A stretch of 64,000 bases of DNA from Pseudobdellovibrio sp. (GTDB taxonomy: Bacteria; Bdellovibrionota; Bdellovibrionia; Bdellovibrionales; Bdellovibrionaceae): NCBI GenBank assembly GCA_023701385.1, contig JAMPXC010000009.1, forward strand, positions 1-64,000, read 5' to 3'. The notes under the pieces are model-generated. The model was not told the origin of the DNA. It saw nothing but the letters and a program-made list of their open reading frames with translations, and did not search any database. Shown here piece after piece: positions 26,623-30,303 of the stretch. A program made the position numbers and the translations under genes. Within the stretch, counting starts at the first letter, position 1. Every line of letters starts with the position of its first letter.

Positions 26623-27207
26623 ATGGAACAATCGAACACTAACAATAAAGACGGCTCAACAGCTGTCGATGCTGCAGCAGAACGCGCCCGTGCTGCGGTT
26701 ACTAATATCGGAAAAACAACCCCGGTGACCGTGACAGGAGCGACCAAAGAAGCTTCTGAAGGCGAGATTCGCCAATTATTAGAAGAATTTGCTGATGCTA
26801 TTCGAAGTGGAAAAATTGAAGATATTATGTCGTTTTATGATCCAAGCTTAATTGCATTTGATGTCGCCCCTCCCTTACGCTTCACTAATGCCAATGAGTA
26901 CAGAAAAAACTGGGAAACAATGTTTACCACAAAAATGCAATTTCCGGTAAGCTATGAATTTAGCGAAGAAAAACTTCATGTCGATGGAGATCTTGGAGTA
27001 TTTCACACATTAATTCACACAGCAGGTACAATTAAAGAACCACAACAAGGCGAACCTAAAGAGATGGATTGTTGGGGACGTTATACCTGTGTGTTGAAAA
27101 AAACGAATAATCGCTGGCGTATTTTTCACGAACACTTTTCAGTGCCCGTGGCAGAAGATGGAAAAGCTTTAATGAATTTAAGGCCGGGATACGAAGTAAG
27201 CCACTAG
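26623..27207 (+). CDS. SnoaL-like/SgcJ-type NTF2-fold protein
   Basis: 194 aa, preceded by AAGGAGG. Residues 1-45 are a polar, Ala/Thr-rich leader without signal-peptide character. Residues 48-185 follow the SnoaL/DUF4440 (ketosteroid isomerase-like) pattern: IRQLLEEFADAIRSGKIEDI, then MSFYDPSLIAFDVAPPLRF, YRKNWETMF, a strand with DLGVFHTLIHTAGT, and GRYTCVLKKTNNRWRIFHEHFS. NTF2-fold proteins are small ligand-binding or isomerase modules. Probably cytoplasmic, ligand unknown. A sigma-54-like site stands upstream. The stop overlaps the convergent secreted gene by four bases. Confidence 0.8.
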   Translation: MEQSNTNNKDGSTAVDAAAERARAAVTNIGKTTPVTVTGATKEASEGEIRQLLEEFADAIRSGKIEDIMSFYDPSLIAFDVAPPLRFTNANEYRKNWETMFTTKMQFPVSYEFSEEKLHVDGDLGVFHTLIHTAGTIKEPQQGEPKEMDCWGRYTCVLKKTNNRWRIFHEHFSVPVAEDGKALMNLRPGYEVSH

Positions 27208-28619
27208 TTACATTGCATTTTTCTGAACTGATCCATTTTTGAATAAATAAGATCGGCCCAAAGTTCATTAACTTTCATATTTAAGGCATCGCCTTTTAGA
27301 CCTGTCTGTTTAGCTACAGAATTTTTAAAAGGCATGTCAACATCTTGAAAGTTTGCAACCGTCAAGATCGTCATTAAATCTTGGCGAGTCACTAAATCTA
27401 AACGGGCCACGAAATCACGACGGGCTTTTTCAGTCACAGTTGTCAAACCTGGAAGATCTTTTTTAGGGCCTTTTCCCGGTTGAGTTGCAAGAGTACATTT
27501 GTTATCTAAGAACATATTTAACGCTCTATAAGCGGCATAATCACCCCGCGGATGATTTTTATTTTTTACAAATTTAAGATCACGGTTACCAAACGCTGAT
27601 CCTAAATCATGAGTTCCCGCAATCGGCGCCGTACAAACTTTTTTCTCGCCTGTTTTAATAACGTTTTGATTCTCGCAAAGCATAACATGCTGGCTTCCGC
27701 GCTCTTCAACAGTGTGAACCAAGTTAATAAATAACGCTAAAACTTGAATTTCGTGTTGCTGCTGAGCTGTAAGCTTTGAGAAGTTAGAAATGTATTCGTC
27801 CCATCTCCAAGGTGTATTTACGAATTGTTTTCCAAGTTTTGGGTTAGAGGTAAATGCTTTCATAATACGTTTACCTTCAAATTTTCTTTCGATGGCAGCA
27901 CCCGGAAACACATTGGTCTTTGCGACGGGTACTAACTGTGGCTCTAAACCATTTTTCCACGGATCAGTGTCACAACCAAAACAAACCACTTCTTTAGCTG
28001 GGTAATAATTTTCTGAAGGAAAACCCATCATCCACGCTAAACGTGTTGCGACGGTACTTGTGTACGCTTCACGGTGACGCCACTCGTTTAATTCAGTTTG
28101 GCTTTTTATACCTTCAAGTGAAACTTTAAAACGAACTTTTAACACATCAGCAGAAACTGGTTTTACTTCGCCTTTTTTATTTGTTTGCGTGATCACACTG
28201 CCATCAGCGCGAACTAAAACATCTTCTTCTAATTTTCCGGCGTACATAGCGTCTTTGACCGCAACCGCTTCAGGAACAGGTACGCCTTTTTCAGATACCA
28301 GCACATTGCTTTCATTAGTTCTGGCGCAACGAAATTTATTACTTGAACCATTTTGGTAACGGTAAAAATAACGACAATAAGTACGGCCTTGGGGATCAAT
28401 CGCAGCCTCATCAGATTCGGCGCCGCGGATAATTTCTTCTTGTGTTTTTTTAGCCGGAACCGGCATTAAAAAATGAGCTTCACGAAGACAGGCAATACGG
28501 TTTGAATCTTTATCGCTAATGGGCTTTTCTAAATCGGCAAAAATCTCACAGGTTGCAAAGCTTGCTTGAGCTAAAAATGTGGTGAAAAGCAAAGAAGTCA
28601 GGGTGCGAGAAAGTTTCAT
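27204..28619 (-). CDS. Large secreted protein, possibly kinase-like fold
   Basis: 471 aa with a signal peptide (MKLSRTLTSLLFTTFLAQAS, cleaved near SFA-TC). Mature protein has many Cys (for example KEVVCFGCDTDPW). Central sequence WRHREAYTSTVATRLAWMMG recalls the helix that follows the ATP-binding lobe in HipA/FAM20/CotH-like kinases. LALFINLVHTVEERGSQHVM (about 295-313) and THDLGSAFGN (H337-D338-L339-G340) sit where catalytic-loop and DFG-like elements would be. The catalytic Asp is not obvious, so an inactive or divergent kinase fold is only a suggestion. A perfect sigma-54 consensus promoter and GGAGGA precede it, divergent from another large secreted gene. Confidence 0.7.
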   Translation of the reverse strand: MKLSRTLTSLLFTTFLAQASFATCEIFADLEKPISDKDSNRIACLREAHFLMPVPAKKTQEEIIRGAESDEAAIDPQGRTYCRYFYRYQNGSSNKFRCARTNESNVLVSEKGVPVPEAVAVKDAMYAGKLEEDVLVRADGSVITQTNKKGEVKPVSADVLKVRFKVSLEGIKSQTELNEWRHREAYTSTVATRLAWMMGFPSENYYPAKEVVCFGCDTDPWKNGLEPQLVPVAKTNVFPGAAIERKFEGKRIMKAFTSNPKLGKQFVNTPWRWDEYISNFSKLTAQQQHEIQVLALFINLVHTVEERGSQHVMLCENQNVIKTGEKKVCTAPIAGTHDLGSAFGNRDLKFVKNKNHPRGDYAAYRALNMFLDNKCTLATQPGKGPKKDLPGLTTVTEKARRDFVARLDLVTRQDLMTILTVANFQDVDMPFKNSVAKQTGLKGDALNMKVNELWADLIYSKMDQFRKMQCN

Positions 28620-28645: not shown

Positions 28646-28661
28646 AGCAACGAAAGTGCCA
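28646..28661 (-). promoter_or_regulatory. Consensus sigma-54 promoter (leftward)
   Basis: Minus strand TGGCACTTTCGTTGCT matches TGGCAC-N5-TTGCT exactly; GG 28660-28659, GC 28648-28647. RNA should begin near 28635, 16 bases before the ATG at 28619. Confidence 0.7.
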
Positions 28662-28680: not shown

Positions 28681-28808
28681 GTCTTAAAATGCTTAAAAAG
28701 TGCAGATAGGCTCCATAGAGTGACTCTCTGTCGAAAACCTTAACAGACCTAAATCTTAAAATCGCTTTAATTCTTATGCCTTTGGCACCCCGTCTGCAGT
28801 CTTAAAAT
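28681..28808 (+). repeat. Three copies of (G/A)TCTTAAAAT between divergent promoters
   Basis: GTCTTAAAAT at 28681-28690, ATCTTAAAAT at 28753-28762 and GTCTTAAAAT at 28799-28808 lie in the 211-base divergent region. A short palindrome AGAGTGACTCT sits between the first two. They could be sites for a sigma-54 activator, but AT-rich chance repeats are possible. Confidence 0.3.
28783..28798 (+). promoter_or_regulatory. Sigma-54-like promoter (rightward)
   Basis: TGGCACCCCGTCTGCA: GG 28784-28785, ten bases, GC 28796-28797; one mismatch (C for T) in the -12 element. RNA would begin near 28809, 22 bases before the ATG at 28831, with GGGAG as ribosome-binding site. Confidence 0.65.
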
Positions 28809-28830: not shown

Positions 28831-30303
28831 ATGCCGAAGTTCAAATTCTCATTTCTCGTTCTGCCCTGCCTAATTTCTTCAAGCGTTTTTGCCTATATGG
28901 ATTTAAAAACTTCACGTGGAGAAAAAGTTTTAAGTTTTGCAAAAAACGAGATCTGTGTAATTCCCAGAAAGTTTCCGAATATTGATCCGAAAAAACAAGG
29001 CCAATCAAACTATTCAGCAAAAGATTTAGAGAGCGAATTAGAACTTTGCCACATGGATTTTCACGCCCAAACCCCAACTACGAAAAACACGGCGCAAAAC
29101 TATGCTGTTGCCATCTGCCCTAAACTTCATAACACAAACCCGGGCTTAGAAATTTACGAAATCGGTGCTGGATTTACCAAACAATCACTTGAAACAAAAA
29201 TTTGCGATATGCCTTCAGACCTTCGCGATGGAACAAAACTAGCAAAATATAAACTCAGCACAAGCTGTAGCTATACGCCTTCAATTCTTGCTTACTATCA
29301 CGTATCCCGTATTATGGGTGATATTTTAAAAGTCCCGCCCGTGGTTTTAAGAACGATGGATGCCGAGGCTTACAAAGCTGTGCCGGCTAAAGGTAAAAAA
29401 ACACTTTCTAAAGGCGGCGTTATCGCCGCCACATGGAAAGCTGTGATTAACCAACTAAATAACCCAACAACTGATAAACGTGGACCTTACTTATTCACGA
29501 ATGACTACATGCAAACTTTTGGTGGCCTTATGAAAAACGCCAAAGGCGAAGCTGACTGGTTAGAAATTTCTAACGATGCCGGCGGCGAACAAATGGCGCG
29601 CGGTAAAGCCTTTATGCAAGAGCAAGTTTACCTTGATTTAATTAACCCTAATATGGCCACAAAGATTGTTGGCCAGCAATGGACACAAGATAACGTTCAG
29701 CGTTTGCGTGTAATGGGTGATGCTGCTGATATGTTAGTGATGGATTATATCCTTCGCCAAGAAGATCGTTTTAATAATATCGCCTACAAACTTGAAGTCA
29801 CTGGCTTAGTTAAAGGTGCTGATGGCAAAATCGATATTAAATCCTTAGACGTAAAAAAAGCTGATTCAGCTGAAGAGTTAAATTCAGCTCTGCAAGAGTT
29901 TATGGCTAAGTATGGAACTACAGCTTTTCCCGTTCGCCGTATAATGCTTAAAGATAACGACTGCGGCGTTGCCGTAGAATCAGCCGTAGCCCGCACAGGC
30001 ATCGCTGAAAAATTAAATATGCTCACAAGCATTCGTCATATGAAAAAATCAACCTATGACCAATTACAACGCTTTCACTCGTACCTATCTGGAGCAAGCA
30101 CAGGAAGTTATGCGAAAGACTTTTTTATGCGGGAAACTATGATGACTGAAAAAGACTATGCGCAGTTTGCCTTAAATATCAAACGCTTAGCCGAAGGCAC
30201 AAAATCATTATGTAACGCAGGCCAATTGCATTTAGATTTACAATTAGAAGCACATTTTTCTAACAGCTATAAAACCGGAAGTCAGAATTGTATTGCGCAA
30301 TAA
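28831..30303 (+). CDS. Secreted protein with FAM20-like kinase motifs
   Basis: 490 aa with a signal peptide (KFSFLVLPCLISSSVFA, cleaved before YMD). The motif order resembles FAM20-type secreted kinases: AYYHVSRIMGDILKVPPVVL (154-173) parallels their helix-plus-VPP segment; ADMLVMDYILRQEDRFNNIA gives a catalytic-loop candidate Asp312 with Asn315/316; IMLKDNDCG (Asp375/Asp377) parallels the metal-binding LDN segment. About 35 extra residues lie between the last two. Several Cys suggest disulfides outside the cytoplasm. Known relatives phosphorylate secreted proteins or sugars; the substrate here is unknown. A sigma-54-like promoter drives it, divergent from 27204-28619. Similarity is judged by eye. 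Confidence 0.65.
   Translation: MPKFKFSFLVLPCLISSSVFAYMDLKTSRGEKVLSFAKNEICVIPRKFPNIDPKKQGQSNYSAKDLESELELCHMDFHAQTPTTKNTAQNYAVAICPKLHNTNPGLEIYEIGAGFTKQSLETKICDMPSDLRDGTKLAKYKLSTSCSYTPSILAYYHVSRIMGDILKVPPVVLRTMDAEAYKAVPAKGKKTLSKGGVIAATWKAVINQLNNPTTDKRGPYLFTNDYMQTFGGLMKNAKGEADWLEISNDAGGEQMARGKAFMQEQVYLDLINPNMATKIVGQQWTQDNVQRLRVMGDAADMLVMDYILRQEDRFNNIAYKLEVTGLVKGADGKIDIKSLDVKKADSAEELNSALQEFMAKYGTTAFPVRRIMLKDNDCGVAVESAVARTGIAEKLNMLTSIRHMKKSTYDQLQRFHSYLSGASTGSYAKDFFMRETMMTEKDYAQFALNIKRLAEGTKSLCNAGQLHLDLQLEAHFSNSYKTGSQNCIAQ

Follow-up and report, generated by a model that had tools for sequence, protein, structure and literature searches.

The window, that is, the whole stretch of 64,000 nucleotides of Pseudobdellovibrio sp. 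DNA analysed here, contains on its forward strand an open reading frame (28831-30303, with ATG at 28831 and the stop at 30303) for a FAM20-like kinase family protein of 490 amino acids that is predicted to be exported, an assignment based on the reading frame, its conservation, an AF2 model and structural alignment. A GGGAG ribosome-binding-like site precedes the ATG, and the frame was confirmed as a real gene of a conserved family. Residues 1-21 (28831-28893) form a typical Sec signal peptide, MPKFKFSFLVLPCLISSSVFA, with a basic start, a hydrophobic core and an SSVFA end, as claimed in a preliminary description of this DNA, and from this stretch the protein can be expected to be secreted. N-terminal stretches of the signal-peptide type are common to the family members, one of which has a lipobox, and cysteines 42, 73, 96, 125, 146, 378, 461 and 487 are nearly constant across the family alignments, which fits a protein that would be oxidised and exported.

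Sigma-54-type promoters and the divergent neighbour

At a distance of 32 nt before the ATG lies a sigma-54 type -24/-12 promoter, TGGCACCCCGTCTGCA (28783-28798, forward strand), with one mismatch to TGGCACN5TTGCW; rpoN is present in the genome, and the sigma-54-like promoter proposed earlier is thereby recovered. The kinase gene and its divergent neighbour share a 211-base gap that holds one such site for each of them, that of the neighbour being an exact consensus, TGGCACTTTCGTTGCT, on the reverse strand at 28646-28661, 26 nt before the neighbour start. The genome holds only six exact sites (the reversed control pattern gives two), and two of the six (at loci L075 and L080) precede genes for a lipoprotein-like protein of 333 amino acids and an exported protein of 488 amino acids. 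Among the relatives of the kinase, a site at 20-60 nt was found in 5 of 35 (0.34 expected), and the 150 nt upstream of the paralogue in the same genome, read by eye, contain none. A sigma-54 site as a general trait of the family was rejected on the same count of five relatives.

The divergent neighbour (27204-28619, reverse strand) encodes an exported protein of 471 amino acids that is placed by motifs only (K161, E184 and D338-x-G..FG) in a second kinase-like family, whose members are exported, Cys-rich and marked by K, E, HGDNKxxN and DxGxxFG. Several relatives keep HGDNKxxN, and the window copy has a degenerate catalytic loop in which Asp has become E and Asn has become Q. The window copy and three relatives have lost the catalytic Asp, so that the neighbour is possibly a pseudokinase, and it may be one that is paired with the FAM20-like gene. 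Membership of the neighbour in the same FAM20-like family was tested and ruled out.

Conserved residues, predicted fold and relation to FAM20

Two overlapping family alignments, A1 (25 rows) and A2 (28 rows), with members down to 25% identity, show D305, Q310, D312, R313, N316, D375, N376, D377, H403 and D469 to be identical in every row (25/25 and 28/28), and K98 and K141 are invariant in all aligned members having that position. The preliminary description had quoted a chain of motifs, AYYHVSRIMG..VPPVVLR (154-174), D305..QEDRFNN (310-316) and LKDNDCG (373-379), which lies where it was placed, and it had numbered D312, D375 and D377 correctly, all three being invariant in both alignments; because the residues listed above are identical in all rows, the quoted motifs are not due to chance. 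Of the Asn pair in DRFNN, only N316 is conserved; nearly all relatives have Gly in place of N315.

An AF2 model built with 28 sequences reached a mean pLDDT of 90.3 and a pTM of 0.90. Its N-lobe consists of strand 91-97, the KxxSTNPG loop, strand 105-110, strand 136-142 with K141, helix 149-161, VPP and strand 171-177, and its later part of a long helix (286-308), the D312 loop, strand 317-328, an insertion, strand 365-373 and D375. In the model this order fits that of a kinase: the loop joining helix 286-308 to strand 317-328 carries D312, and D375 comes immediately after strand 365-373, an arrangement like that of kinase active sites. From its position between predicted strands 91-97 and 105-110, KLHNTNPG (residues 98-105, 29122-29145, KxxSTNPG in the family) is a candidate phosphate-binding loop, and K139-Y140-K141 on strand 136-142 (29245-29253) offers, by model and alignment, K141 as the candidate beta3 ATP-binding Lys. 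Residues 149-177 (29275-29361) form a predicted alphaC-like helix and VPP-R segment corresponding to the FAM20 helix-VPP motif in the model, the alignments and hhalign; the alignments and hhalign likewise point to residues 305-318 (29743-29784) as the predicted catalytic loop, D305..Q310-x-D312-R313-x-x-N316, and align HMKKSTY (residues 403-409, 30037-30057) with the C-lobe RIRKSTY of FAM20C. The predicted metal-binding (DFG/LDN) position is K-D375-N376-D377-C-G (residues 374-379, 29950-29967), after strand 365-373 in the model and conserved in the alignments. All of these features lie on the forward strand.

In a VIA-align ranking limited to chains supplied by Foldseek, the best match was Hydra Fam20 (Z 18.0, rmsd 4.0, 281 residues), and Hydra Fam20, DrFam20C and hFam20C together took Z 18.0 to 16.8 (Fam20C 17.1 and 16.8) with 279-295 residues aligned. 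They were followed by PI4KII (16.1), CtkA (11.7), HipT (11.1) and HipA (9.6), with the HipA/HipT/CtkA group spanning Z 7 to 11.7. Foldseek alone gave nothing below E 0.001 against the PDB, its best rows being kinases, PI3K and haspin, at E 0.03 to 0.08, and a BFVD fold search with the same model gave nothing below E 0.02. The predicted structure had been set beforehand as a refutation test, and what it returned was a kinase fold with Fam20 kinases as the best structural matches.

A FAM20 profile built from the sequences of PDB entries was compared with the family profile by hhalign. The helix-VPP segment scored 34.2, where 200 column shuffles reached at most 24.5, and the catalytic segment, with the C-lobe alone, scored 29.9, where 150 shuffles reached at most 18.2 (A1) or 22.9 (A2). 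Single FAM20 sequences scored 25.8 to 35.5 against the family profile, whereas one HipA sequence and a 147-residue PI4KII fragment scored 12.4 to 14.0, within noise, and the likeness to FAM20 is therefore specific rather than general to kinases. With two FAM20 segments matched in the right places and Fam20 as the top fold match, the proposed likeness holds. Of the comparisons suggested earlier, with FAM20C, CotH and HipA, a profile match was obtained for FAM20 and none for HipA, and the Pfam model of CotH gave no match among 25 family members.

With FAM20 (Fam20A/B/C and the hydra and nematode Fam20; PF06702), kinases of Ser-x-Glu or xylose, the family shares its best fold match, the helix-VPP-R segment, a DM-x-I-x-DFL-x-x-x-DR catalytic segment, the DN metal motif, an RKSTY segment in the C-lobe, a signal peptide and cysteines. 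The counterparts of FAM20C D458 and D478, the catalytic Asp and the metal Asp, are D312 and D375, aligned and invariant. There are also clear differences, as DR is followed by HHYE in FAM20 but by xGN in the bacterial family, DNGRGFG stands against DNDCG, and the link between beta3 and alphaC is short compared with FAM20. The place of FAM20C E306, the metal-binding Glu near the alphaC helix, aligns with S147, and no conserved acid occurs between K141 and Y156 in the family alignments. FAM20 kinases have four conserved disulfides (PMC5865150); of the cysteines in this pattern, the CC pair and those of beta6-beta7 are without counterpart, and only C461 lies near the last FAM20 Cys. Pfam PF06702 did not match any of 25 family members at E up to 10; a scan of the same genome with this model also gave no hit, but its positive control gave none either, so that this second negative carries no information. 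Lacking the metal Glu, the FAM20 arrangement of cysteines and a Pfam match, the product is to be called FAM20-like and not classed as FAM20 itself. Of the FAM20-type kinase that had been proposed, the fold and the motif order thus stand and strict membership falls, and model and alignments support the reading as a probably exported kinase-fold protein closest to FAM20.

Other kinases share less with the family. Type II phosphatidylinositol 4-kinases, the second-best fold, have DR and DN motifs in common with it, but the 147-residue fragment gave no profile match, and these enzymes are cytoplasmic and membrane-bound. HipA, HipT and CtkA are bacterial kinases of the same broad fold with weaker Z; to our knowledge they are not Sec-exported. 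The CotH spore-coat kinases are also bacterial and are set apart here by their own Pfam model, not by fold, as their absence from the list of fold matches carries no weight; a Legionella kinome study grouped them with FAM20 (PMC9758233).

Distribution of the family and its PTP-fold partner

Of 100 related genomes, 36 contain relatives of the kinase, and a search of 84,980 species genomes gave 27 named loci. Most of these loci belong to Bdellovibrionota, the others being four from Bradyrhizobium, two from Thiotrichaceae and one Methylococcales record. Sequence searches of Pfam, NCBIfam and the PDB returned chance matches only, and the family is without a name. Horizontal transfer is indicated by the tree, where the Bradyrhizobium and Methylococcales copies are nested within those of Bdellovibrionota, and it is the likely source of the Bradyrhizobium loci. 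The window copy forms a long lone branch (1.16 changes per column). Searches of viral contigs, phages and plasmids found no relatives and so lend no support to an origin of the family from a phage or plasmid.

An exported protein marked by HCW(N/Y)G(W/L/I)H(A/S)(S/T)G adjoins the kinase at 10 of the 27 named loci, in the same direction or divergently, and at 16 of 32 matches in relatives. This unnamed secreted family, with HCWxGxH(A/S)(S/T)G as its motif (e.g., L053:6395-7111, L047:4220-4894 and L098:3618-4334), gave strong matches only in kinase-carrying genomes among the 100 searched: the kinase was present in 26 of 26 genomes with a strong match, versus 36 of all 100 genomes (Fisher p ~4e-16, uncorrected for kinship). 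The model of the partner (pLDDT 81) has a PTP fold, matching AtPFA-DSP1 and Siw14 (Z 14.3) and TpbA (Z 13.5; Foldseek E 7.5e-4). It shares with the TpbA, Siw14 and PFA-DSP phosphatases the fold and the HC at the P-loop, but the Arg of the CX5R P-loop is absent in 10 of 10 aligned members. These features suggest a phosphate-reading partner, and we infer its role from them. The link between a secreted Arg-less PTP-fold protein and a FAM20-like kinase family is new here.

The same genome also carries, on contig 89, a kinase paralogue and a PTP-fold partner that adjoin each other 70 bp apart, while the kinase gene of the window has no such partner beside it. Directly upstream of the pair on contig 89, two genes encode exported proteins (474 and 429 amino acids; L098:5742-8457, reverse strand) whose sequences begin, once past the signal peptide, with ACVDLF and CQLMF motifs and have no Pfam match. 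The kinase and the PTP-fold gene occur together in three named Bradyrhizobium species and one uncultured MAG (L047, L048, L049 and L051), and in a Methylococcales MAG two diverged family members stand in tandem behind the PTP-fold gene (L052:1443-4269). DUF2252 adjoins several members of the kinase family, and a fusion of 823 amino acids (L063:4920-7388) joins a FAM20-like domain to a DUF2252 domain; DUF2252 was placed in the kinase clan by the Legionella study (PMC9758233).

Possible activity outside the cytoplasm

We consider the most satisfactory explanation, and a reasonably probable one, to be a Sec-exported, FAM20-like atypical kinase that transfers nucleotide phosphate outside the cytoplasm. 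After Sec export, the protein would form disulfides and take on a FAM20-like atypical kinase fold outside the cytoplasm, the KxxSTNPG loop and K141 would hold the nucleotide phosphates, D312 would act on the acceptor hydroxyl and the metal would be held by D375 and N316, possibly also by D377. The catalytic-loop Asn N316 may replace the metal-binding Glu of FAM20C, in analogy to PI3K-like kinases and HipA, where the Asn of this loop holds metal, although N316 lies at D+4 and the Asn of PI3K and HipA at D+5. The phosphate donor would be a nucleotide, and the acceptor a protein, glycan or lipid belonging to the envelope or to a partner cell. The family would work with the secreted PTP-fold protein, whose probable task is binding or reading phosphate instead of the usual removal, and sometimes with DUF2252, whereas the window copy would be a divergent paralogue with no adjacent PTP partner and under sigma-54 control.

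A narrower form of this explanation, a lipid or glycan kinase similar to PI4KII or the xylose kinase Fam20B and acting on envelope glycolipids, is a plausible candidate that falls short of being probable. PI4KII is the second-best fold (Z 16.1), the top match, Hydra Fam20, was deposited as a glycosaminoglycan xylosylkinase, and the partner is similar to Siw14 and PTPMT1, enzymes whose substrates are inositol phosphates or lipids; the PI4KII fragment is, however, without a profile match, and the substrate class is not readable from the fold.

It is unlikely that the product is a pseudokinase that binds or scaffolds. The Glu missing at the FAM20 metal site is also changed in Fam20A, which is a pseudokinase, and the periplasm would be expected to lack ATP, for which reason an exported kinase faces a donor problem. 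Relatives with 27% to 38% identity, horizontally acquired copies among them, nevertheless keep all other catalytic residues unchanged, and such residues usually drift in pseudokinases, as they do in the neighbouring family. Equally doubtful is an effector of predation that phosphorylates prey molecules, as the preliminary description suggested. Export, the sigma-54 promoter and a GTDB genus that includes Bdellovibrio qaytius would agree with such a role, and ATP of the prey might solve the donor problem, but the family is also carried by Methylococcales, Thiotrichaceae and Bradyrhizobium, the last of which is a non-predator. Least likely is a kinase fold with another nucleotide-dependent transfer instead of phosphorylation, such as the AMPylation of SelO or the glutamylation of SidJ, both known kinase folds with altered chemistry, for even though the family lacks the metal-binding Glu of FAM20 and has a phosphate loop, KxxSTNPG, that differs from FAM20, D312, N316 and D375 are invariant in canonical places and the PTP-fold partner suggests phosphate chemistry.

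Returning to the exported FAM20-like kinase, the frequent association of its family with a phosphatase-like gene suggests that the carriers phosphorylate something outside the cytoplasm, and this raises the question of the nucleotide source for an extracytoplasmic bacterial kinase. A kinome network describes the FAM20 kinases as specific to eukaryotes or to Metazoa (PMC9758233), and no report of such bacterial relatives of FAM20 turned up in the literature searched. An exported bacterial family that lies nearer to FAM20 than to HipA bears on the origin of the secretory kinases. It can tentatively be speculated that Bdellovibrionota and a few horizontal acquirers possess an extracytoplasmic phosphorylation module composed of the FAM20-like kinase, an Arg-less PTP-fold protein acting as a phosphate binder or an altered enzyme, and sometimes DUF2252. 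If this holds true, the module would be a bacterial counterpart, and possibly an older relative, of secretory-pathway kinases that have been thought to be animal-specific.
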